Assembly (NCBI GenBank): GCA_030650395.1
Contig: JAUSDY010000016.1
Coordinates: 1-64,000 of the forward strand
Direction of reading: 5' to 3'
From: Acidobacteriota bacterium
GTDB taxonomy: Bacteria > Acidobacteriota > Vicinamibacteria > Vicinamibacterales > UBA2999
Length of the DNA: 64,000 nucleotides
Below are positions 8,621 through 62,707 of this stretch, piece by piece. A program made the position numbers and the translations under genes. The notes below the pieces were generated by a model. That model saw nothing but the letters and a program-made list of their open reading frames with translations, was not told where the DNA came from and searched no databases. Each line of letters opens with the position of its first letter. Position 1 is the first letter of the stretch.

Positions 8621-9278
8621 CGACGATCCAGCCGTCTTTCAGGTTGATGACGCGCCGGCCGTAGGCCGCGTTCGCCTGCGAGTGGGTGACTTGCACGATC
8701 GTGGTGCCGGCCTCGTTGAGGCGGCGGAACAGCTCCATGATCTCTTTGCCCTGATCGGTGTGGAGATTGCCGGTGGGCTCGTCCGCCAGGATCAGCGTCG
8801 GCTTGGCCACCACCGCGCGCGCGATCGCCACCAACTGTTGCTGTCCGCCCGACAGCTGGTTCGGAAACAGATCCTTCTTGCCGACGATGTTGAAGCGGTC
8901 GAGGATGTCGGCGACCATGCCTTCGCGCTCGCTCTTCTTGACGTCGCGGTACGACAGCGGCAGGTCGATGTTCTCGTAGACCGTGAGGTTGTCGAGCAGG
9001 TGATAGCTCTGGAACACGAACCCGACGTGCTGCTTCTGCACGCGCATCCGGTCTTTCGCCGACAGCTGGTGGATCGGATCGTCGAACAGCCAGTACTCGC
9101 CGGTCCACGCGCTGTCGTGCATCCCGAGGATGTGCAGCAGCGTACTTTTGCCCGCGCCCGACGGCCCCATGATCGACACGAAGTCGCCCTGCTTGATTTC
9201 GGCGTTGACGCGGCGCAGCACGAAGGTTTGAGACAGGCCGTGCCGGTAGGACTTTTCGATGCTATTCAGTGTGATCAT
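8610..9278 (-). CDS. ABC transporter ATP-binding protein (MacB/LolD type)
   Basis: This 222-residue ATPase carries Walker [10 protein letters not shown], signature LSGGQQQ, Walker B LILADEPT and the switch histidine in VTHSQ. This is the family that powers MacB/LolCDE/FtsX-type mechanotransmission permeases. It is the second ATPase gene of the operon and lies downstream of the single permease, so the operon holds two non-identical ATPases for one permease. Its end overlaps the response regulator start by 11 bases, tying transport to regulation. Confidence 0.9.
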
Positions 9279-45943: not shown

Positions 45944-45972
45944 GAAACGGCGATTTCATGAGGAGAAACGCC

Positions 45973-47301
45973 ATGCAGTCACGTCGCACATTCCTTCGCG
46001 GATTTTCGGGTGGGGTGGTGGCCACCGGCGCGGCGCTGGCTGCCGGCCGGACGTCTTTGGCTGCCAGGGGTGGCGAGCAGGTCATCGCGCCGACACTGTC
46101 GGCGGCGAACCTCAAGCCGGCCGGGCCGCTGGACGAGGCCTACTGGTGGAAGGTCCGCAGCCAGTTCAACATCATCGACGGCATGACCTTCATGAACAAC
46201 GGCACCGAAGGGCCGGTGCCGCGCGTGGTGCTCGAGGCCAACGAGCGGTTCTTCCGCGAGATTGCGGAGAACCCCTCGAACAACTACCGCCGCGAAGAGA
46301 TTGACGTGGTCCGCGGCGAGGTCGCGAGGTTTGTCGGCGCCAACGCCGATGAGATCGCGCTGACGCGCAGCACCACCGAGGGCATGAACATCTTCACCCA
46401 CGGCCTCGACTGGAAGGCCGGCGACGAGGTGATCTACTGCAGCCACGAGCACGGCGGCGGCATCGGCTGCATCACGACCATGGCCAAGCGTGCGGGCATC
46501 AAGCCCGTCGTCATCGACATCCCGTCGCCGCCACAGAGCGTCGATCAAATCGTCGGGCTATACGAGAAGGCGATCACGCCGCGGACCAGGGTTATCATGG
46601 TGAGCCACATGACCTATGTGACGGGGCTCGTCACGCCGGTCAAGGAGCTCGCCGACCTGGCGCATCGCCGCGGCCTGCTGATCTCGGTGGACGGCGCGCA
46701 TCCGCTCGGGATGATGGATCTGGATTTCAAGGCGATGAACGTCGATCACTACGCCGCCGCCGGCCAGAAATGGCTGATGTGCGGCACCGGTACCGGCGTC
46801 TGCTACATCAAGCGCGACGTGCAGGATCGGATCTGGCCGCTGATGGGGCCGCCCGGAGACCCCAAGGACGGCGCCAAGAAGTACGAGGCCTTCGGCCAGC
46901 GCGACGTGCCGTCGGCGCTTGGCATGTCTGCCGCGGTGGCGCTGCAGACCGCGATCGGCAAGCAGAACGTCGAGGCGCGAGCCCGGGCGCTCAGCACCCG
47001 GTTCCGCACGGGACTCAAGGGCATCCCGGGTGTGAAGATGTGGACGTCGGAAGACCCGCGCTTCGCTGCCGGCCTGACGCTGTTCAGCGTGCGCGACGTG
47101 CCGATGGCCAACGTGCAGCAGGCGATCCTCAATCGCGATCGCATCTACATCCGCACCATGACGACCGGCAACCTGAACGGCTGCCGCGCCGCGACGCACA
47201 TCTACAACATGCCGGACGAAGTCGATCGCTTGATCGCCAGCGTGAAGCATGTCGCGGAGAACGCCAGCCGCTACATGACGACGACCGCGCAAGCGCGATA
47301 A
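45973..47301 (+). CDS. Class V aminotransferase (isopenicillin-N-epimerase-like), Tat-exported
   Basis: This 442-residue PLP enzyme of fold type I has a twin-arginine signal (SRRTFLRGFSGGVVATGAALAA), the PLP-ring aspartate in SVDGAH (D240) and the Schiff-base lysine K266 (AAGQKWLMCGTG). The family includes cysteine desulfurases and isopenicillin N epimerases; no conserved desulfurase cysteine loop was recognised. AGGAGA seven bases before ATG 45973 fixes the start. It lies 29 bases after the DUF5916 gene and is probably co-transcribed. Substrate unknown. Confidence 0.87.
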   Translation: MQSRRTFLRGFSGGVVATGAALAAGRTSLAARGGEQVIAPTLSAANLKPAGPLDEAYWWKVRSQFNIIDGMTFMNNGTEGPVPRVVLEANERFFREIAENPSNNYRREEIDVVRGEVARFVGANADEIALTRSTTEGMNIFTHGLDWKAGDEVIYCSHEHGGGIGCITTMAKRAGIKPVVIDIPSPPQSVDQIVGLYEKAITPRTRVIMVSHMTYVTGLVTPVKELADLAHRRGLLISVDGAHPLGMMDLDFKAMNVDHYAAAGQKWLMCGTGTGVCYIKRDVQDRIWPLMGPPGDPKDGAKKYEAFGQRDVPSALGMSAAVALQTAIGKQNVEARARALSTRFRTGLKGIPGVKMWTSEDPRFAAGLTLFSVRDVPMANVQQAILNRDRIYIRTMTTGNLNGCRAATHIYNMPDEVDRLIASVKHVAENASRYMTTTAQAR

Positions 47302-47436
47302 TTTCGCTGTGACGGGCCGCCGCCGGCCCGTTCCCAGCACCTTTCTTCACGGCTCATAACCCTTGCGCCACGGTGACAACTGCGGTACGGTTTGTCGATC
47401 CTTTTCGCGTTGGTCACACTGATTTGGAGGAGAGCC

Positions 47437-50403
47437 ATGGGTAGCAAGTGGCGTTTTGCTCGTTTCGGCGGCGCAGTGATGCTGGTTCTGTTGGTCGGCG
47501 TGACGTCAGTGGCGAGTGCGCAGAGCGGCCTGGGCGGTCTTCGCGGCGCGGTCACTGATCAGCAGGGTGCGGGGCTGCCGGGCGTGACCATCACCGCCAC
47601 GTCTCCCGACGTGCTGCGGCCGCAGAGCGATGTCACCAACGAGCGCGGTGAATACCGGCTCAACAACCTGCCTCCCGGCACGTACCTGCTCGTCGCCGAA
47701 TTGCCGGGATTTGCGACGTTCCGGCGCGAAGCGATTCTGGTCCGGGTCGGCGCCACCTTCGCGCTCGACTTCACGATGCAGTTGAGCGCGGTCCAGGAAA
47801 CCGTCACGGTGACCGGCGACTCGCCGATGATCGAGGTCGACAAGCCCGGCAACGTCCTCAACATCGACGGCGAGTTCCAGCGCCTGCTGCCGATTCAGGC
47901 GCGGCGCAACTACAGCGACTTCCTCGAGCTCACGCCGGGTGTGATCTCGCGTGGATTTGACGACGGTAGCGGGCGCCAGGTGTATTTCGGCCACGGCACC
48001 GAGCACTTCGCTCACGTCCTCCAGCTCGAAGGCACGATCGCCACCAACTATCACGACGCCCAGCTCACCTATGTCTCGATGGGCGCCGACATGGTGCAGG
48101 ACATCCAGGTCAAGACCGGCGGCGTTGACGCCAGCTCGCCGATGGGCGTCGGCCTGGTCATGAACATCGTCACCAAGAGCGGCGGCAACACGTTCCGCGG
48201 CAGCGGCGCGGTGGGGTATCAGCCGTTCGACTGGAACGGCAACAACGTCGACAACTGCTCGACTGCGCCGGGGTGCAAGCCGGGCACCGGCGGCACGCCG
48301 ACTACCGCCTATGTGCGACAGTTCGATGCCGCCCTCGGCGGTCCGATCAAGAAGGACAAGGTCTGGTTCTTCGGCGCGTTGCGGCGGGCGGTGTCGGCCG
48401 CCGGCATCAGCCGGACGGCCACCGAAGTCGAGCGCATCAAGGCCTACAAGCCGGACGCCGAGCTCTTCAACAACGACAGCGAGAGCTGGCAGCCCTTCTT
48501 GAAGATCAGCACGCGCGCCGGGCAACATGACATTCAAGGCTTTTACCAGCAGGACCGACTCCTGCTATCGGGAGACCGCGAGTACAATTATGAGCCGGTC
48601 CAGGCGCAGTCAACGGGAGGGCCACTCTACAGCGGCAAGATCACGTCGGTCTGGGGCCTGCGCACGACCACGACGTTTACGGCGTCGTACAACGGCAAGG
48701 GCGGGAATGACGCCCAGACGTTTGCATCGCTCGGCAGGACGGGCCCGCAGATCACCATCCATAATTCTGCCAATGTCTCCGGCAACATCGTCTCGGGATC
48801 CGGACGCATCCTCGAGGGCGGCAACCTGCCGTCGTATAGTTTTCAGCCCGCGTCACAGATCGTGGTGCGTGGCGACCTCACCTACTACAAGGACGGCTGG
48901 ATGGGCAGCCATCAGCTGCAGACGGGTTTCTTTGCGGCCCCGCGTAGCACTTACGACCAGCAGACGGAATACGTCAACGGCGGGTTCGTCTGGGAAGAAC
49001 ACCGACTGCGCACGCCGGGCAACGTCGCTGGCGGCACGGTGCCGTTCCATCGCCGTTATCAAACACCCGTTTCGCTGACCACCCGCGCCGCGCGCGACCG
49101 CGACATCGGCATCTACGTTCAGGACACGTGGCACCCGAATAACCGGGTCACACTGAACCTCGGCGTCCGCGCCGACTTCGTCAAGCGCAACGACGACATC
49201 TTCAACATCGTGAGGCAGAACAGCACGTCGATTGGTCCGCGTCTCGGCTTCTCGTATCTGCTGACTAAGGATTCGCGCAACGTCTTGCGGGGCAGCTACG
49301 CACGCGTCCACGAGCAGGTGATGGGGCGCGACGCGATCACGCTCTTCGGGGCCAACGAGGCGGCGGGGCAGCGGGATGAGTATGACGCCGACGGCGACGG
49401 CCGATTCGAGATCGTCGTGCCGACGGCCGCCCGTTCGGCCACCATTGCCGCCGGCGAATTCGCGGACGACCTCCACCAGCCCTACGTCGATGAGCTGATT
49501 CTCGGCTTCCGCAAGCAGTTCCCCGGCCAGATCAGCTTCGACATCGCGGGCATCAGCCGCAGCTACCAGGACATGTGGGCCCGGGTGGACGTCAACGGCA
49601 TCTATCCGAGCGGTCCGAATCAGCCCTTTGGCGGATTCGGCCGGATCGATCCCACGCGGGGCATCATCTTCCAGCAGCAGAACAATTCGTGGAGCACGCT
49701 CGAGTACCGGGCGATCGAGATGACCATGGCGAAGAACCTGTCGCGAAACTTCCAGGCGATGGCCAGCGTCAATCGCCAATGGCAGCACTTCGGCGGCACG
49801 TGGAACCCCACGGACCCGGCGGGGTTCATCCAGCCGACCACGTTCGACAGCGACGCGCTGCTCTACATGCCGCGCGGCAACAATGAAGACAACAGCCTGC
49901 CGCTCAATACGGGATCGACCGTGCACACCTACGGCCCGACCTGGCAGAAGTACTCGACACGCTTCGGTGGCACCTACCAAGCGCCGTGGCGAGTAGTGAT
50001 CTCGGCGAGCTACACGATACTCGCCGGTCCTTGGTCGGGGCCCATCGTTGACCTGCTACCCGTGGGCGATCCGCAGCTGGCCGCGTTTGGTCCCGCCCGT
50101 GCGTCGAACGGGCAGAACAACCCACTGGCGACGCGCATGAGGTTCGTGAATGCGAACCGCGGTGAGGGCCAGGTCCAGGCGCCGGCCATCAAGACGCTCG
50201 GGCTGAACTTCAACAAGTCAATTGGCTTTGGTGGCGGCCGCGAGGTAGTGCTGAGCGGCGCCATCTTCAACGTGCTGAACGACGGCAACTACACTCAGTA
50301 CAACTATAGCGGCGCGAACGAGAAGTTCAACCCGAACTTCCTGCAATTGCGCAATCAGCAAGCCGCGCGCGCCTTCCAGTTGACGGCGCTCGTGAAGTTC
50401 TAA
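47437..50403 (+). CDS. TonB-dependent receptor with carboxypeptidase-regulatory domain
   Basis: This 988-residue outer-membrane receptor has a signal peptide (ending VASAQS), a carboxypeptidase-regulatory domain (about 28-110, GLRGAVTDQQGAGLPGVTITATSP), a plug (about 115-240, VTGDSPMIEVDKPGNVLNIDGEF) and a barrel ending FQLTALVKF. The GATTTGGAGGAGA ribosome-binding site is strong. It closely resembles the receptor at 53084 (shared SPMIE, RNVxRxxxxRVHEQV and WNPTDPAxFIQP phrases), so the two are likely paralogues. It starts the island with the beta-lactamase-RidA and creatininase genes. Confidence 0.92.
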   Translation: MGSKWRFARFGGAVMLVLLVGVTSVASAQSGLGGLRGAVTDQQGAGLPGVTITATSPDVLRPQSDVTNERGEYRLNNLPPGTYLLVAELPGFATFRREAILVRVGATFALDFTMQLSAVQETVTVTGDSPMIEVDKPGNVLNIDGEFQRLLPIQARRNYSDFLELTPGVISRGFDDGSGRQVYFGHGTEHFAHVLQLEGTIATNYHDAQLTYVSMGADMVQDIQVKTGGVDASSPMGVGLVMNIVTKSGGNTFRGSGAVGYQPFDWNGNNVDNCSTAPGCKPGTGGTPTTAYVRQFDAALGGPIKKDKVWFFGALRRAVSAAGISRTATEVERIKAYKPDAELFNNDSESWQPFLKISTRAGQHDIQGFYQQDRLLLSGDREYNYEPVQAQSTGGPLYSGKITSVWGLRTTTTFTASYNGKGGNDAQTFASLGRTGPQITIHNSANVSGNIVSGSGRILEGGNLPSYSFQPASQIVVRGDLTYYKDGWMGSHQLQTGFFAAPRSTYDQQTEYVNGGFVWEEHRLRTPGNVAGGTVPFHRRYQTPVSLTTRAARDRDIGIYVQDTWHPNNRVTLNLGVRADFVKRNDDIFNIVRQNSTSIGPRLGFSYLLTKDSRNVLRGSYARVHEQVMGRDAITLFGANEAAGQRDEYDADGDGRFEIVVPTAARSATIAAGEFADDLHQPYVDELILGFRKQFPGQISFDIAGISRSYQDMWARVDVNGIYPSGPNQPFGGFGRIDPTRGIIFQQQNNSWSTLEYRAIEMTMAKNLSRNFQAMASVNRQWQHFGGTWNPTDPAGFIQPTTFDSDALLYMPRGNNEDNSLPLNTGSTVHTYGPTWQKYSTRFGGTYQAPWRVVISASYTILAGPWSGPIVDLLPVGDPQLAAFGPARASNGQNNPLATRMRFVNANRGEGQVQAPAIKTLGLNFNKSIGFGGGREVVLSGAIFNVLNDGNYTQYNYSGANEKFNPNFLQLRNQQAARAFQLTALVKF

Positions 50404-50570
50404 CCGCACTCCTTGCCGGGAGGCACTTCCTGTCGGGAGGGCACTCCTGGTCGGGAGGGCACTTTCGGTCGGGAAAGCATTGCTTGTCGGGATTTCGTTC
50501 CCGACAAACAGCGCTCCCCGACACGAGGCGCCCTCCCGACAAGAGTTGCCCTCCCGGCAAGGAGTGCGTA
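50404..50570. repeat. Inverted array of TCGGGAGGGCACT-like units
   Basis: About five units with cores such as GTCGGGAGGGCACT run to 50487, and reverse-complement units (CCCTCCCGACAAGAG) continue to 50570. The outer ends CGCACTCCTTGCCGGGAGG match perfectly except for one base. Confidence 0.85.
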
Positions 50571-50576
50571 TTGACC

Positions 50577-52082
50577 ATGCGTCGACTACATTTCTGCGTC
50601 GTAGTCCTGCTTGCCCTGAGCCCCGTCGAAGGGCTAAGCCTCTGGATCGCGCGGGGTGATGCGCAGACCCCGAAGACCGCGCTCACGGTTGCGCTCGAGA
50701 CGGAGCTCGATCGATTTCCTGCCAGGACCAGCATCTACGTGAAAGATCTCAAGACCGGCGCCGAGGCCACGGTTCGCGCCGGGGAGTCGTTCAACAGTCA
50801 AAGCGTCATCAAGATCCCGATCATGGTCCGCGCTTTCCAGCTTGCCGAGGAGGGCAAGTTGGACCTCGATGCGCGTGTCACGCTCGGTCGCGCGGACTTG
50901 CGCGATGGCACGGGTGTGTTTCAGTACGCCGATCTGGGTCTCGCGCCGACCGTTCGCGATCTCATCCTGCAGATGATCATCACCAGCGACAACACCGCCA
51001 CCGATCAGATCACGACCAAGGTTGGTGGCGTCGACGAGTTGAACGCGTGGCTCGCGCGATCCGGCTACACGATGCGGATGCTGAATCGCGGCCACGAATA
51101 CCGGCGCAAGCTGCTTGCGCGGCTCGACCCGCGCCTGGCGGGCATCACGCCGGAGGAGACGACGGGCCTGCAGTACGCGCTGTCGGACAACCCATTGTTC
51201 GAGCTGTACCGCCCGCTGTTTCGCGGCGAGCGAGCGGCGTGGCTGGACGTGGTTCGTAATCCGGCGAATCGCCGGAGCCATGCGGAGAACCAGCGGAAGC
51301 TGATGGTCGAAGACCGCAACTACTGGCTCGGCGACATCAGCGCGGACGAGATCGGCCGCATGCTCGAAGGCATCGAGCGCGGGACGATTGCGTCACCCGC
51401 GAGTTGCGCGATTATGCGGACGTTCTTGCGGCGGCAGCTCGCCGGCTCTCGCCGGTTGCCGCATTTCGTCGACGTTCCGGTGGCCCACAAGACCGGCGAC
51501 AGCGGCAACATCGCCAACGACGTCGGCATCATCTATGCGCGATCCGGGCCGATCGTCATTGCCGTCCTGGTCAATGGCATTACGGGTTCATACGGCGAGG
51601 CCGAGGATCGGATCGGGCGGATCGGCAAGTTGGTCGTCGATCATTTCGACGCCTCCACTCCGCTCGGTTCGGTCGAGCCGGCGCAATCATCGGATCGGAA
51701 GCGCGTGATTCAGCCGGCGGGGTACAAGCCCACGCCGTCTCCCTTGTCGCCGGGGATCCTGGTGGGTGACACGCTCTATCTGTCCGGAAGCACGGGCGGC
51801 GATCCCGTCACCGGCCAGTTGGTCAAAGGCGCGTTCGAGCCGGAGATGCGGCAGATCATGGCCAACGTGCAGACGGTGCTCGCGGCTGCAGACATGCGGC
51901 TGGCCGACGTCGTTGTCGTGACGGCCTATCTCGCCGAGATGTCGGACTTCGCGCGATTCAACGAGATCTACAAGGAGTATTTCACGTCAACCCCTCTGCC
52001 GACTCGATCTACCGTCGCGGTGAAAGAGCTGGCCCGCGGCGCCCGCCTCGAGTTAACGATGACCGCTGTGAGGTCGCGATGA
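50577..52082 (+). CDS. Class A beta-lactamase-like serine hydrolase fused to a RidA domain
   Basis: This 501-residue exported protein has residues 1-29 as signal peptide. A class A beta-lactamase/DD-peptidase-fold domain (about 35-360) has S76-V-I-K79, SDN 137-139 and K305-T-G307. The usual omega-loop ExxLN is not clear (NRGHEYRRKLL instead), so beta-lactamase activity is uncertain. A RidA/YjgF-like domain (about 374-501) ends PTRSTVAVKELARGARLELTM and keeps the conserved Arg (R477) used in imine deamination. Its stop overlaps the creatininase start by four bases. The fusion is unusual; substrate unknown. Confidence 0.85.
   Translation: MRRLHFCVVVLLALSPVEGLSLWIARGDAQTPKTALTVALETELDRFPARTSIYVKDLKTGAEATVRAGESFNSQSVIKIPIMVRAFQLAEEGKLDLDARVTLGRADLRDGTGVFQYADLGLAPTVRDLILQMIITSDNTATDQITTKVGGVDELNAWLARSGYTMRMLNRGHEYRRKLLARLDPRLAGITPEETTGLQYALSDNPLFELYRPLFRGERAAWLDVVRNPANRRSHAENQRKLMVEDRNYWLGDISADEIGRMLEGIERGTIASPASCAIMRTFLRRQLAGSRRLPHFVDVPVAHKTGDSGNIANDVGIIYARSGPIVIAVLVNGITGSYGEAEDRIGRIGKLVVDHFDASTPLGSVEPAQSSDRKRVIQPAGYKPTPSPLSPGILVGDTLYLSGSTGGDPVTGQLVKGAFEPEMRQIMANVQTVLAAADMRLADVVVVTAYLAEMSDFARFNEIYKEYFTSTPLPTRSTVAVKELARGARLELTMTAVRSR
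50613..50634. repeat. GCCCTGAGCCCCGTCGAAGGGC element in a signal peptide
   Basis: GCCC/GGGC ends enclose the widespread TGAGCC..GTCGAAGG-type repeat core. It is in frame inside the signal peptide of the beta-lactamase-RidA protein. Confidence 0.5.
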
Positions 52083-53008
52083 CAACGTTGCTGTTACTGC
52101 TTGCCGTGCTGATGCTGCCCGTCTCGGTGTCCGCACAGGTGTCCGCATCCACCAATCCGCTGTGGCACGAGTCGAAGACGCGTAACTATCTGCCGCACAT
52201 GACGTGGCCCGAAGTGCGGGACCTGCGGACGCGGACCGACATGGTGATCATCCCGGTGGCGGCCATGGAGCAGCACAGCCTGCATCTGCCGATCGGCACC
52301 GACTTCCTGAATGGACTCGAACGCGCGAAGCTGGTCGCGCAGAAGGCCGACGTGCTGGTCGCGCCGATTCTGCTTCCGGGCAATTCGCCGTACCACATGG
52401 AGTTTCCCGGCACGATCACGTTGTCGTCGCAGACCATCCAGCAGGTCTATTTCGAAGCGGCGCAGAGCCTGATGAAGCACGGCTTTCGCCGCTTCCTGCT
52501 GCTCAACAGCCACGGCGGCAATCAGATCATCACGCGCTACATCGCCGATCGGATCAACCAGGAGACTGAAGGGATCGCGGTCGAGCTCGGTGAGGCCGCG
52601 GCGCCGTTCCTGACGCGGGCACCGCAACCTGCAGACGGCACGGCCCGCGTCTTCGATCGGCATGGCGGTGTCGGCGAGACGTCCACGTCCCTCTACATGA
52701 CGCCCAACCTCGTGGACCTCGAGGCCGCTCGCCGCGCTACGCTCACCATGCCCGAGCATCTGCAGAAGATGCTCCCTGAGGTCGTCGCCGGCGATCCCAC
52801 CGCGACGCTGGTCTTTCTGGCCGAAGGCCTCAAGGCCACGGCCACCGGCAAGGGCACGTCCACGCGCGAGATCTCGGACACCGGCACCTGGGGATTGCGC
52901 GATCCGCGCGAGGCGACGGCGGAAGCGGGTCGCCGTGACACTGAAAATTTCGTGCAGGCTGCCGTGAAGTTCATCGAACGGTGGAACCAACTCCGGCCGA
53001 TGCGTTGA
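52079..53008 (+). CDS. Creatininase-family amidohydrolase, exported
   Basis: This 309-residue hydrolase has a signal peptide (ending SVSAQ). Creatininase-family metal motifs are visible: EQHSLHLPIGTD (E, H and D), NSHGGN and RHGGVGETS. The family cleaves cyclic amides or amidines. The ATG overlaps the upstream fusion gene stop (ATGA), so the two are translationally coupled. With the flanking TonB receptors it suggests periplasmic hydrolysis of an imported amide. Confidence 0.9.
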   Translation: MTTLLLLLAVLMLPVSVSAQVSASTNPLWHESKTRNYLPHMTWPEVRDLRTRTDMVIIPVAAMEQHSLHLPIGTDFLNGLERAKLVAQKADVLVAPILLPGNSPYHMEFPGTITLSSQTIQQVYFEAAQSLMKHGFRRFLLLNSHGGNQIITRYIADRINQETEGIAVELGEAAAPFLTRAPQPADGTARVFDRHGGVGETSTSLYMTPNLVDLEAARRATLTMPEHLQKMLPEVVAGDPTATLVFLAEGLKATATGKGTSTREISDTGTWGLRDPREATAEAGRRDTENFVQAAVKFIERWNQLRPMR

Positions 53009-53083
53009 CAGGCGCAGGCGATCGGCGTAGCCTGCGCGCCAGGCGATTTCGTTTCAGTCACCGGCCATTCCAGGAGGGCAGAA

Positions 53084-56004
53084 ATGTTCCGTTGCATTCT
53101 TGCCGCGGCCTTAGCCGCGTTGATCGTGACCAGTTCATCGGCGTCTGCCCAGACCGGCGACGGCAGCCTGCGCGGGTACGTTAAGGACGAGCAGGGCGCC
53201 GTGTTGCCAGGCGTCACGGTGACCGCGACCAGCCCGACGCTCCTGACGCCCGTCGTGGGCGTCACCGATAGCAGCGGCTACTACCGCGTGCTCAACCTGC
53301 CGCCGGGTACCTACGCGATCGCGGCGGAGCTGGCCGGCTTTGCCACGACCCGCCGGGAGGGCATCGTCATGCGGGCCGGCATTACCTTCAGTGTCGACCT
53401 GCAGATGAAAGTCGGCACCCTGGCCGAGACCATCACGGTGACGGGCGATTCGCCGATGATCGAAACGGGCCGGCCGACAAGCGTGCTCAACATCGACGGC
53501 GACCTGGTCCGCGCGGCGCCGATCACCTCGCGCCGGCTGTTCAGCGATGCGCTCGACCTGGCGCCCGGGGTCGGGTCGCGCAACGTCGACGACGGCATGG
53601 GGCGGCGGGCGTACTATTTCCGCGGCTCGCACATTTACGCGCACGCCTTTCAGCTCGAAGGCGCGCCGGCCTCGGCGTACGTCGACTCCGCGGCGCATTC
53701 GATGGGCATGGGCGGCGACACGGTGCGGACGTCGAGATCAAGCTGGGCGGCGCCGACGCGTCCACGCCGCTTAGCACCGGCGTCGTGATGAACGTCGTGA
53801 CGCCGCGCGGCTCGAACCAATTCAAGGGCTCCGTGTCGTACTCCTTTCAGCCGCTCAGCTGGAACACCGATAACACCAAGGGCGGCGCGGCGCCCGGCGG
53901 CCTGCCGACCTTCCAGGAGGTCAACCAGTGGGACGGGTCGCTCGGTGGCCGTATCATCCGCGACCGGATTTGGTTCTTCGCGACCTACCGTCATGCCGAC
54001 CTGGTCAACGGCATCAGCCGCACCCCACAGGACCTCGCATTTCTCACCGCGTTCCGACGCGATTTTCAGCCCTTTGACAACGTCTCGGTCAGCAAGCAGC
54101 CGTACCTTAAGGTCACGACGACCATGAGCAACCGCCACGAGCTCTCCGGGTTGTGGCAGTACGATCGCAACAAGTTCAGCAGCAATCGCGAGCGCGATAC
54201 GCATAACATCAACCCGCGCGGGGCGGGCGGCTCGTTGTTCCACGCCAAGCTGAATTCAGCCTGGTCCGACCGCTTCCAGACCATGTTCTCCGCCTCGTAC
54301 AACAACAAGGGTGGAGCCGAGGAAGACACCTTCAAGAACTTCCCGGGGTTCGGGCCGTCCGTGCTGGTGCATCAGTCGACCCGGATCTCCGGCGGCCTGC
54401 CGACCGGGAGCGGCATTCTCGTCACGATGAACAACGTCCAGACGATTTCCATCGCGCCGTCGTCGATGGTCAACTTCAGGGGCGACCTGACGTACTTCCT
54501 GCAGGGATGGGGAGGGTCGCACGAGCTCAAGACCGGCATCTGGGGCGCGCCCAGTCTCGAGCGCGACGTGCTCAGCCGCGCGTTGAACGACGGCTTCACG
54601 CTCGAGCAGGTGGTGCAGCGCGATCCGAACAATCCGGCGGCCGGGCTCGTGCCGTACCACCGCCGTTACACGTCACCCCTCGAAGTGCTGACGACGGCGG
54701 CCCGTGACCGCGACATCGGGGTGTACGCGCAAGACACGTGGAGGCCTGGCCAGGGGCGACTCACGCTCAATTTCGGCGTGCGCGCGGATTTCGTCCGCCG
54801 CTTCGACGAAATATTCGGCGTCCAGCGCATGAAGAGCACCAACATCGGGCCGCGCATCGGCGGCGCGTATGTGATCGACAAGGACTCCCGCAATGTCGTC
54901 CGTGCCTTCTTCGGGCGGGTGCACGAGCAGGTGAACGGCCGCGATCCCATCACGACCTTCGGGCCGACGTCGCGGCGGTTCCAGCGCGACATCTACGACG
55001 CCAACCTCGATGGCGTCTTCGAGACCGAAGTCATCACGCCCGCGGCGACAGCGGCCATCAACCAGCTGGCCTTCGATCCCGAGCTGCACCAGCCATTCGT
55101 CGACGAGTACGCCGTTGGATTCGCCAAGCAGTTCAAAGGGCAGATCACCCTCGACGTCTCGTTCAACCGTCGCTTCTTCAAGGACGCCTACGGCGAGGTG
55201 GACATCAACGGCATCTATCCGGACGGGTCGAACAAGCCCTTCGGCGGGTTCGGCCGCGTGGATCCCAATCAGGGCAGGATCATGCAGCAGACCAACGCAA
55301 CCTGGAGCCAGGTCGTCGTGACCAACCTCGAGCTAATTCTCGCCAAGAGCCTGTCCCACAATTTTCAGGTGATGGGGACGGCTACGCGGCAGTGGCAGCA
55401 CCTTGACGGCACGTGGAACCCGACCGACCCGGCGCGGTTCATCCAGCCTGATGCGTTCGCGAACAACCGCGATCTGTCACGGCATCTGTTCGGGAATGGT
55501 GACGACAACAGCCTCGACGGCGGAGGCAACGAGTCAGGCGTGGCCTACCGGCCGTTCTCGGTGCGGTTGGCGGGGCAGTACTTCGCGCCCTGGTCGGTGC
55601 GGCTGTCGGCAAGCTACGTGATTCAGGCCGGCGGTTATCTGGGCCCGGTGGTGGTGCAGAATGCCACGGGCGATCCGGTCTTCGGGCCCGGAACGGTCCG
55701 GCTGGCCAACGGCACGACGCAGTCCAACCCGCTGGCGACGTCGTGGCGCTTTGTCCACACGGACCGGTCGGGCGGTCAATTGCGCAACGAGACCGCGCGC
55801 TACTTGCAGCTCAACCTGGGTCGCACCGTCAAGTTCGGACGGCAGAGCGTCGATGCCGGGCTTGGCATCTTCAACGTCTTCAACAATGGTGCGTTCACCC
55901 AGTGGAACACGGGCGCGCAGCGGCTCAACAGCCCTCTGTATTTGTCGCGCTTCAACCGGCACCCGCCGCGCGCGTTCCAGCTGACGTTGTCGTACAAGTT
56001 TTAG
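53084..56004 (+). CDS. TonB-dependent receptor with carboxypeptidase-regulatory domain, one frameshift
   Basis: ATG 53084 follows AGGAGGGCAGAA. A signal peptide, regulatory domain (SLRGYVKDEQGAVLPGVTVTATSP) and plug (VTGDSPMIETGRPTSVLNIDGDL) run in frame to about 53726. A one-base deletion (GTGCGGAC, where homologues such as the 47437 receptor suggest GTG CAG GAC) then shifts the frame: uncorrected, it stops at 53788. The next frame carries the rest of the plug (DVEIKLGGADASTPLSTG) and barrel to 56004, ending FQLTLSYKF. With one base restored the product is about 973 residues, close to its paralogue. Confidence 0.85.
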
Positions 56005-56009
56005 AGGGG

Positions 56010-56085
56010 CGTAAGGACTTGGGGGCTTGAGGGCTTGGAATCCTCGAGCCTCCGGTCTTCGAGCCTCGAGCCTTTTGCACCCGGA
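56010..56085. repeat. GGGCTTGA / CTCGAGCC repeats before the BNR protein
   Basis: GGGGCTTGAGGGCTTGG units are followed by CCTCGAGCC/TTCGAGCC units, partially complementary, filling the gap between two genes. Confidence 0.7.
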
Positions 56086-56094
56086 GCCACACGC

Positions 56095-59000
56095 ATGTCA
56101 CGATTGTTCAGACGAACGGCCCGAGGCGCAGCCCTGGTCTTGGCGGCCTGCGGCGCCTTCCTCACCACCAGCTACGCCCAGCAAGCCGCACGTGTCAGCG
56201 GCGATCTCTACAGCCGCATGCACTGGCGCTTCATCGGACCCGAGGGCAACCGTTTCTCCGCCGCCGCGGGTGTGCCGGGTGATCCGCACGTCTATTACGT
56301 TGGCGCCGCGTCCGGGGGTATCTACAAGACCGTCGATGCCGGCGTGACGTGGCAGCCGATGTTCGACGGTCAGCCTGTTCAGTCGATCGGTTCGCTGGCC
56401 GTCGCCGCTTCGGATCCCAACACGGTCTGGGCCGGTACCGGCGAAGGAAAGATCCGTAGCCACATCTCGGTCGGCCAGGGCATCTACAAATCCCTCGATG
56501 CCGGCAAGACGTGGGCGCTCATGGGGCTGGAGCAGACCGGCCGCATTCCCCGTCTCGTGATCGATCCCAAAGACTCGAAGGTCGTACTTGCGTGTGCGCT
56601 GGGCCACGCCTACGGACCGCAGCCGGAGCGGGGCGTCTTTCGGACCATCGACGGCGGCCAGACGTGGACTAAGGTGCTGTTCGTCGATGACAACACGGGG
56701 TGTTCGGACATCGCCATGGATCCGAAGAACCCGCGCGTGCTCTTCGCCGGAATGTGGCAACTGGAGATTCACACGTGGGGTCGTGACAGTGGCGGCCCGG
56801 GAAGCGGCTTGTACCGGTCTCAGGATGGCGGCGCGACCTGGAAAAAGCTGAGTGGGAGCGCGCTGCCGACGCGCCCGGTCGGCAAGGTCGCGGTGGCTAT
56901 TGCGCAGTCGAACCCGAATCGCGTCTACGCGATGATTGAAACCGGCGATGGCGTGCCCTGGAACGGCCAGGACACCGACACGGGCCAGGTCTGGCGGTCG
57001 GAGGATGGCGGCGACACCTGGCGCCTGGTGAGCCACGACCACCTCGCCATGGGCCGCGCGCATTATTACTCGCGCATGGCTGTGGCCCCGGACGACGAGG
57101 ACGAGGCATACTTTCTGACCGCATCGTTCGCCAAGTCGATCGACGGGGCGCAGACCCTCGCCGTGGTGCCGCGCGCCCCCGGCGGCGATCACCACGACAT
57201 CTGGATCGATCCCGGCAACGCCAATCGAATGATCGTCGCTCACGACCAGGGCCTGTCGATCTCGATCAACCGCGGCCGCACCTGGTTCCGGCAGCGCCTG
57301 ACCAATGCGCAGATGTATCACGTCACCGTCGACAACGAGATTCCCTATAACGTGCTCGGCAACAAGCAGGACGAGCCGTCGTACCGCGGCCCGAGCAACA
57401 GCCGGCTGCAGGGCGGGGGTGGCGACGGCATCATCCCGCGAGCGATGTGGCACTCGGTCAGCGGCGGCGAAAGCGGGTGGGCCACGCCGGATCCGGTTGA
57501 TTCCAAGCTGGTGTGGTCGTCGGCGTCCGGCTCCGGCTCGGTCGGCGGCATCGTCGTCCGCTTCGACGAGAACCGGCGTCAGTTCCGGAACGTCGAGGTC
57601 TGGCCGCACCAGTCGAACGGTCCGGCGGAGGGCGTGCGCTATCGCTTCGTGTGGGACGCGCCGCTCCACATTTCACCCCACGACCGGCACACCATTTACG
57701 TGGGCAGCCAACACGTGCATCGGACCACCGACGGCGGGCAGAGCTGGACGGTGATTAGTCCCGACCTCACGCTCAACGACAAGACCCGGCAAGGCAGCTC
57801 CGGCGGCCTGACGCCCGACAACATCGGCGTCGAGTATGCGGGGGTGGTCTTCGGGATCGCCGAATCGCCGAAGGAACGCGGCCTGATCTGGGCCGGCACC
57901 AACGACGGCTTGGTACAACTGACACGTGACGGAGGAAAGACGTGGACCAACGTCACGAAGAACCTTCCCAATCTGCCCCCGTGGGGAAGTGTCCGCAGCA
58001 TCGTCCCCTCTCGTTACGATGCGCCGACGGCGTACCTGACGGTGGATTTCCATCAAGTCAACAATCGCGACCCGTTCGTCTACAAGACCACTGATTACGG
58101 GCGGACCTGGCGGTCGATCACCAACGGCATTCCGCGCAGCATGCTGAGCTACGCCAAGGTCATTCAAGAAGATCCGGTGCGGCGCGGGTTGTTGTACCTC
58201 GGCACCGAGAACGCCATCTACGTGTCGTTCGACGATGGGGAAAACTGGCAGCCGCTGCAGAATGATCTGCCTCATGCGCCGGTCTCTGGCATCGTCATCC
58301 AGGAGCACTTCAACGACCTCGTGATCTCAACCTACGGCCGCGGCTTCTTCATCCTCGACGACATCACGCCGCTGCAGCAGTTGACGCCGCAAGTGCTCGC
58401 CTCGGACATGCATTTGTTTCCACTGCGCGCGGCCTATCGGTTCCGGTCGATCACGGCGCCTTCGAGCACCTATGACGACCCGACAGTGGGCGAGAACCCG
58501 AGATACGGCGCGTCGATCAATTACTACCTGAAGACGCCGCCGCCGGGTCCTGTCACGATCAGCATCGTCGACGCGAAGAGCCAGGTTGTCCGTACGTTCA
58601 CCGGGCCAAAGGTTGCGGGCCTCAATCGCGCTCAATGGGATCTGCGTTCGGAGCCGACGAAGGAAGTGCGGATGCGGACGAGCCCGATGTACGCGCCACA
58701 CATCAGGGTCGGTGCCGACGGGACGCGCCCGGCGCCTGGCGCTGGTCAGAACACCATGCTTATGCCCCCGGGCGTCTACACCGTGAAGCTGTCGGCTGGT
58801 GGACGCGAACTGACGCAGTCGCTGACCGTGCGGAAGGATCCGAATTCGGGTGGCACCGAGGAGGACATCGCCGCACAAACCCGCATGGTGGTCGATATTC
58901 GCGATTACCTGAACACGGCGGCGGACATGGTCAACCTGATCGAGGGCATGCGCAGCCAGATCGAAGCGTTGGACCGCGTGACGGGCGACCCGGCCATCAA

Positions 59001-59316
59001 GAAGGCGGCCGAAGAGGTCAACTCACTGCTGATGGCGGTGGAGATGAACCTGGTCGATCTGCGGATCACCGGCGGCCAGGACGGCGTTCGATACGCCTCC
59101 AAACTGATCGGCAAGCTGAACTACCTCGCCAACGGGCTGGCGAGCGGCGATTTCAAGCCGACCGATCAGCAGGTCGAGGTGCAAAAGCTGGTTGAGGGGC
59201 AGTTAAGGGACCTGCGAACGCAGCTGGAGGGGCTGCGTTCCCGAATTGTGAGCGGCTTCAACGACCAGTTGCGGAACAAGAATCTTCCGATTATCGTGGT
59301 GCCGCCACCGAAGTAA
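56095..59316 (+). CDS. Sortilin/VPS10-like BNR-repeat protein
   Basis: This 1073-residue exported protein has a signal peptide (ending SYAQQ). Multiple BNR/Asp-box motifs follow (S/T-x-D-x-G-x-T-W pattern: KTVDAGVTW, KSLDAGKTW, RTIDGGQTW, RSQDGGATW, RSEDGGDTW, HRTTDGGQSW, LTRDGGKTW, KTTDYGRTW), forming beta-propellers over about residues 30-760, and then a C-terminal helical region. Such proteins are common in Acidobacteriota and Bacteroidota and probably bind or cleave glycans or peptides. It lies between two TonB receptors. Enzymatic activity is not shown. Confidence 0.88.
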   Translation: MSRLFRRTARGAALVLAACGAFLTTSYAQQAARVSGDLYSRMHWRFIGPEGNRFSAAAGVPGDPHVYYVGAASGGIYKTVDAGVTWQPMFDGQPVQSIGSLAVAASDPNTVWAGTGEGKIRSHISVGQGIYKSLDAGKTWALMGLEQTGRIPRLVIDPKDSKVVLACALGHAYGPQPERGVFRTIDGGQTWTKVLFVDDNTGCSDIAMDPKNPRVLFAGMWQLEIHTWGRDSGGPGSGLYRSQDGGATWKKLSGSALPTRPVGKVAVAIAQSNPNRVYAMIETGDGVPWNGQDTDTGQVWRSEDGGDTWRLVSHDHLAMGRAHYYSRMAVAPDDEDEAYFLTASFAKSIDGAQTLAVVPRAPGGDHHDIWIDPGNANRMIVAHDQGLSISINRGRTWFRQRLTNAQMYHVTVDNEIPYNVLGNKQDEPSYRGPSNSRLQGGGGDGIIPRAMWHSVSGGESGWATPDPVDSKLVWSSASGSGSVGGIVVRFDENRRQFRNVEVWPHQSNGPAEGVRYRFVWDAPLHISPHDRHTIYVGSQHVHRTTDGGQSWTVISPDLTLNDKTRQGSSGGLTPDNIGVEYAGVVFGIAESPKERGLIWAGTNDGLVQLTRDGGKTWTNVTKNLPNLPPWGSVRSIVPSRYDAPTAYLTVDFHQVNNRDPFVYKTTDYGRTWRSITNGIPRSMLSYAKVIQEDPVRRGLLYLGTENAIYVSFDDGENWQPLQNDLPHAPVSGIVIQEHFNDLVISTYGRGFFILDDITPLQQLTPQVLASDMHLFPLRAAYRFRSITAPSSTYDDPTVGENPRYGASINYYLKTPPPGPVTISIVDAKSQVVRTFTGPKVAGLNRAQWDLRSEPTKEVRMRTSPMYAPHIRVGADGTRPAPGAGQNTMLMPPGVYTVKLSAGGRELTQSLTVRKDPNSGGTEEDIAAQTRMVVDIRDYLNTAADMVNLIEGMRSQIEALDRVTGDPAIKKAAEEVNSLLMAVEMNLVDLRITGGQDGVRYASKLIGKLNYLANGLASGDFKPTDQQVEVQKLVEGQLRDLRTQLEGLRSRIVSGFNDQLRNKNLPIIVVPPPK

Positions 59317-59320
59317 GTTA

Positions 59321-59348
59321 GTGGGGCACCCCTTTAAGGGGTGCCCTA
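59321..59348. repeat. GGGCACCCC-TTTAA-GGGGTGCCC hairpin element
   Basis: Perfect 9-bp arms (59324-59332 and 59338-59346) surround a TTTAA loop, with CCCTAC at the right end. It lies seven bases past the BNR gene stop. Confidence 0.88.
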
Positions 59349-59388
59349 CGAAGCCGCTTTCATTCGATACTCGTAACGGAGGCCAGAT

Positions 59389-62337
59389 ATGCGCAATCTC
59401 TTGGGATCGAGTCTCGGCAGTGTGGTATTCGCTGTGTGTCTACTCGGAGTGGCACGGCCCCTCCTCGCGCAGCAGGGCACCGCCGACATCAGCGGGAAGG
59501 TCAGCGACGATCAAGGCGCGATTTTGCCGGGGGTCTCCCTCGTGGTGACCAACGAAGCGACGGGGGTGTTCCGAGAGGTCACCACCAGCGCGGAAGGGAC
59601 CTACTCGGCGTCGCAGCTGGTGCCAGGGCGGTACAAGATTGTGGCGAAGCTGACCGGGTTTCGGACCGCCGAGCGCACCGGGCTGCAGCTGCAGGTCGGC
59701 ACCACGATGACGATCAACCTGTCGCTGGCCGTCGGGGGGGTCGAAGAGACCGTGACGGTTACCGGCCAGTCGCCGCTGGTGGACACGACGAGCGCCCGCG
59801 TGGGCGGCAACGTCGGCACCGCGGAGCTCAGCGAGCTGCCCGCGATGAACCGCAATTACTTCGCGGCCGTCGCCCTCCTGCCCGGCGTGCAGTTCTCGCC
59901 CTCGACGCAGCTGGGCAACGACACCATCGTCGCCTCCGGCCAGTCGTCGCAGGGCAACAACGTGTCGGTCGACGGCGGCTACAACGTCGACGACGCCCTG
60001 GGCGCCGTCGTGGGCGCGCAGGTGCGCACGCCGATTGAGGCGATCCAGGAATTCCAGGTGATGACGAGCATGTATGACGCGGAATACGGCCGCGCCAGCG
60101 GCGCAATCATCAACGCCGTCAGTAAGTCGGGGACCAACCAGTTCAAGGGCGTGATGTTCCTGAGCTCCGCCAGCAACAAGCTCACGTCGAAGGACTTCCT
60201 GGTCAAGCAGCAGAACCTGACCAAACCCACTCTGACGAAGCGCGATTGGGGCGGCGTTATCGGCGGACCGGTCGTCCGCAACAAGGCGCACTTCTTTTTC
60301 AGCCTCGAACGGCAGGTGGACAACCCGACCCGGACGCGCGTCTACCCGACGCGGCCGGATCTCAGCTTGTCGCAGGTCGAGGAGCGCTCGGGCTGGAACA
60401 CGATGGTCCGCTTCGACCACCAGATCAGCTCGACGCACACCTGGGCCGTCCGGTATCTGCGCGAGTCGGCGCCGCAAGTCCCCATCATCCTGGCTCGCCA
60501 CACGAAGGAGACGTTTCACGACGAGGTCGACCTCGACGAGACCGCGGTCGGCACGCTGACCAGCGTGTTCGGCAACACCAAGGTCAACACGGTCCGCGTC
60601 GCGCGGACGTGGGAACACTGGTGGCACGGCAATGCGTGCTCGCGCAGCCTGGGTTTCGAGCGCGAGGGGCCGCAGTCACAGTGCCCGCCGCAGCTCGACC
60701 ACCTGAGCTTCCTGGCCCAGGCCAGTACCGAGGCGCAAGGGCCGTGGGACTCCAACTATCAGATCGAAGACAACCTGTCCTGGTTCGTCCCCGGCAAGAA
60801 GGGCGACCACGAGCTGAAGTTCGGCGCCCGCTATAACTACACCGAGCTGACGCGCGTCTCGCAGATCAATCAGAACGGCACGTTCCGGTTCAACACCGAT
60901 CTGCCGTTCGACCCCGCCAACCCGCGGACCTACCCGGAACGGCTGACCATCCGCATCGGCGAGTTCGAGGAGTTCATCGATAACCACACGGTCGAGGCGT
61001 ACGCCCAGGACCGGTGGAAGATGGGCAACACGACCCTGAGCGCCGGGATTCGCTACGACCTCGAGATCATCCCGATCGACCAGACGCACAATCCGCTGTT
61101 CCCGGCCGGCGACAAGAAGTCGCCGGTCGACCGCAACAACTTCGCGCCCCGAATCGGGCTCACCCACGCGCTGGACGATCAGGGCAAGTCGGTCATCCGG
61201 GGCGGTTACGGGATTTTCTACAACCGCACGGTCCTTGGCGCGATCGACGACACCATCGAGCAATCCAAGTTCACCAATTCGGCTGTGGTCACCTTTCCGA
61301 ACGACAGCGCCGACCCGGGCCCGTCCGCGGGCCGGCTGCCCACCGATCCGTTCCTGGTCAATGGCCCGTTCCTCAACACGGCGCTGCTCAACCAGCGCTT
61401 CCCCCCTGGGACGCTCTTGAGAAACACCGGCGTCGTGGTCTATGACTCGCCGGATCGGAAGCAGCCTTGGGCGCATCAGCTCACGGTCGGCTACAGCCGC
61501 CAGATGGCGGCGTCGGTCGCCATCCAGGCCGATTACATCCACATGCAGAACAAGGACATGTTTCTGGCGCGCAACCTCAACCCGATGCTGCGGGCCAACA
61601 CCAGCCGGACCGGCGCCATCACGCGCGTCGACGCGTTCGGCGCACTGGGTGAGCCGTACAGTCAGCGGGTGTGGGTGATGGAGAACACCGGCGAGTCCAA
61701 GTACGACGCGCTGAACCTGTCGCTCGAAAAGCGCTACGCCAATAACTGGTCCGGCCGCGTGTCCTACTCGTTGTCGTCGTCGCGCGGAACGGCGGAGAAC
61801 CAGGCCGACAAGAACACCCACCAGGTCCTGACCGATCTGAATCTTGACGCCCGGTATGGGCCCATGAACGTGGACCGCCACCACATCCTGTCGCTCAACG
61901 GCCGGACCGAGGTCCCGAAAACCAAGGGGCTCACGCTGTCGTCCACGGTGCGGTGGATGAGCGGCGCGCCGTTCACGATCTTCGACAGTAACGTGGACGT
62001 GGACCGGAACGGCGAGCTGGACGATCCGCTCCCGGCGGGCACTTACAGCGGCACCGCGTTGAATGCCATGAAGGACGTGGAGTCCAAGGGCGGGCGTAAC
62101 GGCGCGATCGGCCCCGACTACTTCCAGGTCGACGTCCGCGCCGGCTGGCGGGCGCGCCTCGGCAAGGACCGGGCCCTGGACGTTTACCTGGACATCTTCA
62201 ACATCACCGACCGCGCGAATTGGGACAATCCGTCGGGAGACCAGCGCGTGGCGGCCACCTTCCTGCAGTTGAGAACTCTGCGCGGCGGCAGCGGGTTCCC
62301 GCGTTCTGCGAACTTCGGCCTCAGGTACGCGTTCTAG
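59389..62337 (+). CDS. TonB-dependent receptor with carboxypeptidase-regulatory domain
   Basis: This 982-residue receptor has a signal peptide (ending LLAQQ), a regulatory domain (GKVSDDQGAILPGVSLVVTNEATG), a plug (VTGQSPLVDTTSARVGGNVGTAELSELP...SVDGGYNVDDALG) and a barrel ending FGLRYAF. GGAGGCCAGAT precedes the ATG. It is less similar to the other three receptors. It is the last gene of the plus-strand island and is followed by hairpins. Confidence 0.92.
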   Translation: MRNLLGSSLGSVVFAVCLLGVARPLLAQQGTADISGKVSDDQGAILPGVSLVVTNEATGVFREVTTSAEGTYSASQLVPGRYKIVAKLTGFRTAERTGLQLQVGTTMTINLSLAVGGVEETVTVTGQSPLVDTTSARVGGNVGTAELSELPAMNRNYFAAVALLPGVQFSPSTQLGNDTIVASGQSSQGNNVSVDGGYNVDDALGAVVGAQVRTPIEAIQEFQVMTSMYDAEYGRASGAIINAVSKSGTNQFKGVMFLSSASNKLTSKDFLVKQQNLTKPTLTKRDWGGVIGGPVVRNKAHFFFSLERQVDNPTRTRVYPTRPDLSLSQVEERSGWNTMVRFDHQISSTHTWAVRYLRESAPQVPIILARHTKETFHDEVDLDETAVGTLTSVFGNTKVNTVRVARTWEHWWHGNACSRSLGFEREGPQSQCPPQLDHLSFLAQASTEAQGPWDSNYQIEDNLSWFVPGKKGDHELKFGARYNYTELTRVSQINQNGTFRFNTDLPFDPANPRTYPERLTIRIGEFEEFIDNHTVEAYAQDRWKMGNTTLSAGIRYDLEIIPIDQTHNPLFPAGDKKSPVDRNNFAPRIGLTHALDDQGKSVIRGGYGIFYNRTVLGAIDDTIEQSKFTNSAVVTFPNDSADPGPSAGRLPTDPFLVNGPFLNTALLNQRFPPGTLLRNTGVVVYDSPDRKQPWAHQLTVGYSRQMAASVAIQADYIHMQNKDMFLARNLNPMLRANTSRTGAITRVDAFGALGEPYSQRVWVMENTGESKYDALNLSLEKRYANNWSGRVSYSLSSSRGTAENQADKNTHQVLTDLNLDARYGPMNVDRHHILSLNGRTEVPKTKGLTLSSTVRWMSGAPFTIFDSNVDVDRNGELDDPLPAGTYSGTALNAMKDVESKGGRNGAIGPDYFQVDVRAGWRARLGKDRALDVYLDIFNITDRANWDNPSGDQRVAATFLQLRTLRGGSGFPRSANFGLRYAF

Positions 62338-62350
62338 TTACTGATCGTGG

Positions 62351-62372
62351 CGACAAACCTTTAGGTTTGTCG
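62351..62372. repeat. CGACAAACC-TTTA-GGTTTGTCG hairpin
   Basis: Perfect 9-bp arms around TTTA, 14 bases past the TonB receptor stop. The loop is shared with other hairpins here although the arms differ. Confidence 0.9.
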
Positions 62373-62398
62373 AGTGATATCGCGTCGCGACATACATG

Positions 62399-62435
62399 CG
62401 GCCGGGGGAGCAGGCTCCTCCGGCCGTTGTCATTG
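62399..62435 (+). terminator. Possible terminator after the TonB receptor
   Basis: A 12-bp stem CGGCCGG...CTCC, with one G-U pair, has a CAGG loop (62411-62414) and is followed by TTGTCATT. The T-run is weak. The rest of 62436-62631 contains further GC-rich hairpins (for example around 62488-62512 and 62570-62600) and no gene. Confidence 0.45.
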
Positions 62436-62631
62436 GAATCAGAGTGGCTTGCCATCCGAAGCTCGTTCTGAATTGGGAACAGCCCACCTTCGCGCTGCGC
62501 GCTTCGGTGGGCATCCTTCGCGAATGATTGCTCGCGGGGTTTACCAACCGTAGCTCGCTGCGAGCGCTGAGTCCACCGTCGCGGCTTCGCCGCTATGGTG
62601 GACAACCTCCGCGAGGATCGAGAGCGGAGGT

Positions 62632-62707
62632 TGGTGGCCAGGGAGGGAATTGAACCCCCGACACCACGATTTTCAGTCGTGTGCTCTACCAACTGAGCTA
62701 CCTGGCC
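62632..62707 (-). tRNA. tRNA-Phe (GAA)
   Basis: A complete cloverleaf reads on the minus strand. The acceptor GGCCAGG pairs with CCTGGCC, the D-arm contains AGCTCAGTTGGTAGAGC, the anticodon loop CTGAAAA lies between CACGA and TCGTG, the T-loop is GTTCAAT, and the 3' CCA is encoded (62634-62632). The anticodon is GAA. Confidence 0.96.

Follow-up and report, generated by a model that had tools for sequence, protein, structure and literature searches.

A class A beta-lactamase-fold hydrolase fused to a Rid domain, beside a creatininase-family gene, in Acidobacteriota

Rid proteins are known chiefly for clean-up in the cytoplasm, acting on imines whose sources are mostly PLP enzymes and oxidases. 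In uracil breakdown by the Rut pathway, which is cytoplasmic, the product of RutB is placed before the step of the Rid protein RutC. PBP-A lacks Glu166 and is a single-domain protein, and to our knowledge it has no RidA or creatininase partner.

Two described pathways pair an amide hydrolase with a Rid protein. In the Rut pathway, as outlined in PMC8113886, the amide hydrolase step of RutB is followed by deamination of 3-aminoacrylate by RutC. The ong cluster for oxidised chitin (OngB, OngC, OngD), in the account of PMC9537276, comprises an amide hydrolase, a deaminase and a RidA protein; the RidA protein is required for growth, and OngD is assigned no defined role in that account. On the hydrolase side, PBP-A is described as a DD-carboxypeptidase/endopeptidase (PMC11189452), and the beta-lactamase activity of LRA-5, from a soil metagenome, is described as biologically insignificant (PMC12777564).

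Here, we describe a gene in which a hydrolase of the PBP-A/LRA-5 kind and a RidA domain are joined in a single reading frame. It lies in the window, by which we mean the whole stretch of acidobacterial DNA analysed (64,000 nucleotides). The fusion is a variant of known families and not a new enzyme class; together with a constant third enzyme, it suggests a two-step breakdown outside the cytoplasm.

The fusion protein and its domains

The features of the locus are listed below, with conservation given as rows of an alignment, A2, of the window protein with 37 of 80 loci (L045, L053 and L055 were left out for want of a clean frame).

47392..50403, + strand: TonB1, an Oar/TonB-type outer-membrane protein (CarboxypepD_reg and OMP_b-brl_4 by Pfam; start codon uncertain)
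50577..52082, + strand: bla-RidA fusion open reading frame, 501 aa, no internal stop
50577..50669, + strand: probable Sec signal peptide and N-terminal stretch, residues 1-31 (read by eye; pLDDT below 50 at residues 1-28)
50670..51662, + strand: class A beta-lactamase-fold (PBP-A/LRA-5-like) serine hydrolase domain, residues 32-362 (PF13354, AF2 model, LRA-5 match)
50802..50813, + strand: S76-V-I-K79, the SxxK motif (Ser in 37/38 rows, Lys in 36/38)
50985..50993, + strand: S137-D138-N139, the SDN motif (38/38 rows)
51090..51311, + strand: Omega-loop-region insert, mostly helical, residues 172-245, with E174 at its start (AF2 model, alignment)
51489..51497, + strand: K305-T306-G307, the KTG motif (38/38 rows)
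51663..51695, + strand: linker, residues 363-373 (site of the FG-GAP propeller in triple-domain relatives)
51696..52079, + strand: RidA (Rid/YjgF/UK114) domain, residues 374-501, with R477 and E492 (PF01042; UK114 alignment)
52079..53008, + strand: creatininase-family hydrolase with a signal-like N-terminus (PF02633, E 2e-55; 4-base ATGA overlap with the fusion stop)
53084..56004, + strand: TonB2, a second Oar/TonB-type protein, split by a frameshift and loosely linked

The first-pass annotation had read SxxK, SDN and KTG motifs followed by a full RidA domain with its conserved arginine, and this reading is borne out: the frame is intact, R477 aligns with the arginine of human UK114, and Pfam finds both Beta-lactamase2 (PF13354, residues 52-332, E 1.3e-50, above the gathering cut-off) and the Rid family (PF01042, Ribonuc_L-PSP, residues 389-498, E 7.5e-28, 97.4 bits against a gathering score of 27.3), with no other Pfam domain in the frame at E 0.001. 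A chance arrangement is disfavoured by these E-values, by the recurrence of the fusion in relatives and by domain dN/dS clearly below 1. Assembly chimaerism was ruled out, since the fusion recurs in other genomes and its domains show dN/dS of 0.07-0.15. The N-terminus resembles, by eye, a Sec signal peptide, and similar N-termini stand on the fused relatives and on the one separate RidA among them; export of the fusion protein, which the earlier reading had assumed, is thus probable on its sequence.

The AF2 model of the hydrolase domain, built from the 38-row alignment, has pLDDT of 83-99 in ten-residue blocks, apart from one weaker block of 65 (residues 111-120); the RidA half is modelled poorly (block pLDDT 47-81). 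In VIA-align, LRA-5 (Z 33.8, rmsd 1.9, 259 residues aligned) tops both fold searches, where rows within 1 Z count as tied, and PBP-A follows at Z 31.6 (rmsd 2.0, 254 aligned). Scores in the same range are reached by true class A enzymes (6v4w, Z 33.6), and hence fold alone cannot separate an LRA-5/PBP-A-like protein from them. By sequence profile, the best match among solved chains is 4ewf, from Sphaerobacter (E 1.4e-39), followed by PBP-A (E 1.1e-35) and LRA-5.

All three class A motifs are present in this fold. The exceptions in A2 are L040, which lacks the SxxK segment, and L044, which has Arg for Lys79 (SVIR at the SxxK site of this stand-alone Gemmatimonas relative, near 8001-9005). By profile alignment, the Omega-loop glutamate is missing, as first noted. 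Residue 172 pairs with Val166 of LRA-5 and is Thr in 27, Gly in 8 and Ile, Val or Leu in 3 of the 38 rows; Glu at the Ambler 166 equivalent occurs in 0/38 rows of a profile alignment that ends beside the long insert. This supports the absence of the Glu166 deacylation base and would make the domain PBP-A-like, in the sense of a class A fold without that residue; the NCBIfam bla_class_A model scores 97.2 bits against a cut-off of 200. E174, which pairs with position 168, is Glu or Asp in 36/38 rows, and three conserved residues follow the insert, D246 (37/38 rows), W250 and G252 (both 38/38). The fusion marks a branch of the beta-lactamase fold that seems to do without Glu166 and is conserved for another job, which bears on the use of this fold beyond antibiotic resistance.

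In the RidA domain, R477 and E492 align with the Arg and Glu of human UK114 and E. coli RidA, which we take to be residues 107/105 and 122/120, respectively, and both are kept in all ten RidAs of the clade described below. By its Arg105 equivalent, R477, the domain would belong with the imine-deaminating Rid subfamilies; at the RidA Tyr17 position it has Leu, and it falls 6 bits short of the TIGR00004 cut-off (99.9 against 106.25). According to PMC4433059, loss of the Rid arginine almost abolishes activity, and changes at the Tyr17 and Glu120 equivalents of Salmonella enterica RidA have little effect. The premise that RidA is normally cytoplasmic, from which the first-pass annotation had argued, is weakened: among 30 distinct RidAs chosen for closeness to that of the fusion, 21 have, by eye, a signal-like N-terminus, so that RidA export in itself is not unusual in this group. 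A related clade with signal-like N-termini (48-52% identity) was inspected in 12 genomes, and an M19 dipeptidase with a Tat-like N-terminus adjoins it in at least three of them (L210, L212, L215; Pfam was run on the neighbours of 6 of the 12 loci). The fusion could give a first handle on these many signal-bearing RidAs. Elsewhere in the window's genome, a 406-aa frame (G000:C57:11805-12863) carries three tandem RidA domains, the 3x-RidA type of PMC4433059.

Relatives and the conserved gene cluster

A search for the domain pair across genomes, proposed with the first-pass annotation, recovered the fusion repeatedly. Using the RidA domain against 43 genomes of the window's family, we found a RidA of the same clade (at least 77% identity; next best 51%) in ten, and in nine of these it is fused to the same hydrolase. 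The fusion is direct in four (G000, the window's genome; G463; G486; G807) and has an FG-GAP propeller between the domains in five (G107, G213, G293, G348 and G499, the last inferred across a break between two contigs). A break between the domains does occur in the tenth genome, G191, but there bla-FG-GAP and RidA are neighbouring reading frames, the separate RidA has its own signal-like N-terminus, and the arrangement is a two-gene version of the same cluster. Duplicate records were counted once (L038 is G463; L039, G486; L041, G191; L062, G293; L040, G506 and G807). Relatives' genes were called with a custom script, with uncertain start codons, and their signal and Tat-like N-termini were judged by eye. 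A phylum-wide search covered 396 genomes with at most three candidates scored per genome and the best matches listed, so more distant fusions may escape it.

Purifying selection acts on the hydrolase, RidA and creatininase domains. Between the window and its three bla-RidA orthologues, dN/dS is 0.13-0.15 for bla, 0.07-0.11 for RidA and 0.07-0.13 for creatininase, with 0.10-0.18 for the insert and up to 0.96 for the short signal and linker stretches. Against four triple-domain proteins the values are 0.24-0.33, 0.14-0.18 and 0.24-0.27 for bla, RidA and creatininase, and these are rough, dS being near or above 1. One apparent exception to an intact active site is G807 (L040 7992-9320 / L277 857-2185), in which about 48 residues are lacking in frame and SxxK with them; the open frame, RidA and creatininase are retained, and the lack is either a real loss or an assembly fault.

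The bla tree, of 35 rows, places the four bla-RidA domains in a clade of their own (100/100) and the FG-GAP proteins with G191 in a second (100/99); both fall, with the stand-alone hydrolases L042-L044, into a 13-row group (99/97) whose internal order lacks resolution. Two of these stand-alone hydrolases are from Gemmatimonadaceae, L044 being a Gemmatimonas. They are the nearest of their kind (60-62% identity), and the DNA examined on either side, up to 8 kb each way, showed no RidA or creatininase gene. In the RidA tree, which has long branches, all ten RidAs group together (99/99), and that of G191 falls on the triple-domain side (96/90). As both parts of G191, the bla-FG protein and the stand-alone RidA, fall with the triple-domain proteins, this conserved cluster has seen either two fusions or one fusion and a split.

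The overlap with a creatininase-family gene, noticed in the first reading, proved to be more than a local feature. The 4-base ATGA overlap is shared by G000, G463, G486 and G807, and the gene lies directly downstream of the clade RidA in 10/10 loci. In the window its product scores 188.2 bits against a PF02633 gathering score of 31.3. Orthologues of this gene are found in 19/149 genomes of the class, the window's group included, and 11 of these genomes have the orthologue (63-70% identity) with no clade RidA in the assembly; eight of the 11 show both creatininase flanks with neither bla nor RidA, and in the other three the upstream flank ends at the contig end. In another family of the class, a similar 473-aa gene follows the creatininase orthologue in 3/3 loci (L189, L190, L191); in L191 it is by Pfam an amidohydrolase (PF01979) with a lipoprotein-like N-terminus, and an S9 peptidase and a TonB1-like protein lie upstream of the pair.

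The flanking TonB receptors are a less constant feature than the first reading implied. Oar/TonB-type proteins do stand on both sides of the window's cassette, and TonB1 is upstream in three of the four bla-RidA loci (G000, G463, G486; absent from G807), but it occurs at none of the four triple-domain loci with flanking DNA and not at G191. It also adjoins a broken window-type bla that G293 has besides its triple-domain gene. TonB2 is split by its frameshift into frames of 234 and 739 aa in the window, is a single 971-aa frame in the congener G491 (L261) and is apparently cut short at 434 aa in G463 (L038/L193), where it stands beside the cassette as in the window; in G491 it is present without TonB1, bla-RidA or creatininase.

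Two genes upstream of the fusion lies a PvdN-like class V PLP enzyme with a Tat-like N-terminus (45958-47301), whose best NCBIfam model is PvdN at 154.5 against a cut-off of 650. The site between this gene and a tRNA-Phe-PAP2-recA block (window 47301-62707) is variable in the genus (L258, L259, L261, L199): G463 and G107 have PLP, tRNA-Phe, PAP2 and recA together without the cassette, G491 has PLP-TonB2-sortilin-tRNA-Phe, G293 has a PLP remnant followed by TonB1 and the broken bla, and the window has the full set. Because this site varies, and because the G463 cassette is on another contig than its PLP gene, we regard TonB1, bla-RidA and creatininase as the unit. The PLP enzyme was considered as a member of the cassette and rejected on synteny, as G463 and G107 have it with no cassette beside it. 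Similar genes are seen elsewhere. In G356 (L127 7894-9668) a RidA reading frame comes directly after a class V PLP gene, and in the congeners L196, L197 and L198 a class V PLP gene and a RidA-less bla paralogue are some 0.5-2.8 kb apart; a Tat-like N-terminus is seen in L196 and L198, and an M28 peptidase gene follows in L196.

Outside the phylum, we searched 298 genomes of Gemmatimonadota, mostly with five candidates per genome, and found no bla and RidA in one frame among the matches listed. Only two RidAs exceed 60% identity among those matches (G773, 63%; G697, 61%), and both are near creatininase-family (PF02633) genes. In G773 the two genes are divergent, with 36 bases between the reading frames as called; in G697 the creatininase-family gene is about 2.1 kb from RidA, clustered with an FG-GAP protein, which matches a different FG-GAP model, and an amidase with a Tat-like N-terminus. 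With 13 and 7 PF02633 matches in G773 and G697, respectively, both proximities by chance are unlikely, though they were noticed after the fact. G697 thus has the same kinds of part, except that an unrelated serine amidase takes the place of the beta-lactamase fold. The RidAs of both genomes have a signal-like N-terminus and their creatininase-family neighbours have none, so that the partners there may occupy different compartments.

Possible roles of the fusion

What might a RidA domain do when tied to a hydrolase of this kind? Our preferred reading, which we hold tentatively as possible but short of probable, is that the protein is a periplasmic amide hydrolase coupled to enamine/imine deamination. 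The hydrolase, without Glu166, would form an acyl-enzyme on Ser76 in cleaving an amide or peptide bond, and the cut would leave an enamine or imine, such as an opened N-heterocycle or the newly released N-terminus of a dehydroamino-acid peptide. The tethered RidA could then use R477 to hydrolyse the imine, giving ammonia and a carbonyl compound, as its residues suggest. The creatininase-family metallohydrolase, with its overlapping start, may act on the same substrate by cutting another C-N bond, and TonB1, where present, may bring that substrate in. A hydrolase, a Rid domain and a creatininase-family hydrolase that are kept together, and are probably extracytoplasmic, fit an amide cleavage that frees an enamine or imine for Rid, by analogy with RutB/RutC and ong.

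In support of this coupled reading are the fusion in 9/43 genomes and the adjacency in a tenth, the creatininase gene at 10/10 loci, the repeated fusion (or fusion and split) that G191 reveals, the selection on all three domains, the kept Rid arginine and Glu120 equivalent, the two Gemmatimonadota RidAs near PF02633 genes and the M19 dipeptidase beside the related RidA clade. Against it stand the RidA-less creatininase orthologues, the signal-less creatininase-family proteins of G773 and G697, the different FG-GAP model in G697, the solitary L042-L044, the missing SxxK of G807, Leu at Tyr17 and the missed TIGR00004 and bla_class_A cut-offs. A more specific version would have an exported Rid covalently tied to its own imine-making hydrolase, with three hydrolase domains per Rid trimer and a creatininase-family partner, and with a dehydropeptide or natural product as the substrate. 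In this version the class A fold would have turned amide hydrolase and gained a new deacylation base, for which Asp246, directly behind the insert, and Glu174 are candidates. That all of this should hold together we consider somewhat unlikely. Both the coupled reading and its covalent-tie version are graded lower than they would otherwise be, because the Gemmatimonadota creatininases have no signal and signal-bearing RidAs are common.

Several other explanations deserve weighing. One option is that the hydrolase is a PBP-A-like DD-peptidase of peptidoglycan or muropeptides and that RidA cleans up scavenged amino-acid products, the two steps being chemically uncoupled. PBP-A, a DD-carboxypeptidase/endopeptidase in the description of PMC11189452, is indeed among the nearest solved relatives by profile, and S9, M19 and M28 peptidase and gamma-glutamyltranspeptidase genes lie around the relatives (in G463, S9 and M19 genes are a few kb from the cassette); yet muropeptide cleavage yields no imine, leaving the RidA fusion unexplained, and PBP-A has no Omega-region insert, so we judge this unlikely. 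RidA might also serve as an oligomerising module with little catalytic role, holding three hydrolase domains together. The usual assembly of Rid proteins is a trimer (PMC4433059) and the RidA domain is better conserved than the hydrolase by dN/dS, which would suit such a role. Retention of R477 and E492 in 10/10 clade RidAs does not, nor does the RidA of G191, a separate protein with its own signal-like N-terminus, and we find the proposal improbable.

The hydrolase would be a bystander if the task of RidA were to keep 2-aminoacrylate from harming exported PLP enzymes, of which the PvdN-like protein (45958-47301) would be one. The Tat-like N-terminus of that protein two genes upstream of the fusion, and the related PLP gene directly before RidA in G356, speak for this; the PLP orthologues without a cassette in G107 and G463, the G463 cassette on another contig and the commonness of such genes (10 matches scored in the window's genome) speak against it and make it, in our estimation, quite improbable. 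Finally, the pair could degrade beta-lactams, the hydrolase opening the ring and RidA hydrolysing an imine or enamine from opened cephems or penems. The class A fold with SxxK, SDN and KTG is what such an enzyme would have, but Glu166 appears by alignment to be absent, which lowers the case for a true beta-lactamase, and LRA-5 with the same lack is described in PMC12777564 as having biologically insignificant activity. This last explanation we consider very improbable. With its Rid domain joined to a probably exported hydrolase, the protein indicates a suspected source of the Rid substrate.

Comparison with known systems

PBP-A of Thermosynechococcus elongatus (tll2115; PDB 2j7v, 2j9o) has the same class A fold and the same SxxK, SDN and KTG motifs as the hydrolase domain described here, and the PDB titles name an L158E mutant of it; it differs in having no Omega-region insert. 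LRA-5 (PDB 8eo5-8eo7) has Val at 166 and likewise no Glu there, and, unlike the window protein, has neither insert nor fused domain. The same holds for the Sphaerobacter thermophilus beta-lactamase 4ewf, a 275-aa chain without insert or fused domain.

With UK114, E. coli RidA and TdcF, the RidA domain shares PF01042, the catalytic Arg and the Glu120 equivalent; unlike them, it is signal-bearing and fused, has Leu at Tyr17 and scores under the TIGR00004 cut-off. The creatininase-family protein shares PF02633 with creatininase and MftE but misses both NCBIfam cut-offs (90.7 against 235 for creatininase, 97.8 against 172 for MftE), and we assign neither function to it. Nor did our searches of open-licence PMC literature show RidA paired with a beta-lactamase fold as a characterised combination: none of the matches listed describes it.

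The Rut and ong systems are precedents for an amide hydrolase and a Rid protein in one pathway, and the fusion departs from both. RutB and RutC are separate proteins with uracil as the substrate. In ong, on the account in PMC9537276, a PLP enzyme does the deamination, the steps are cytoplasmic and there is no fusion.
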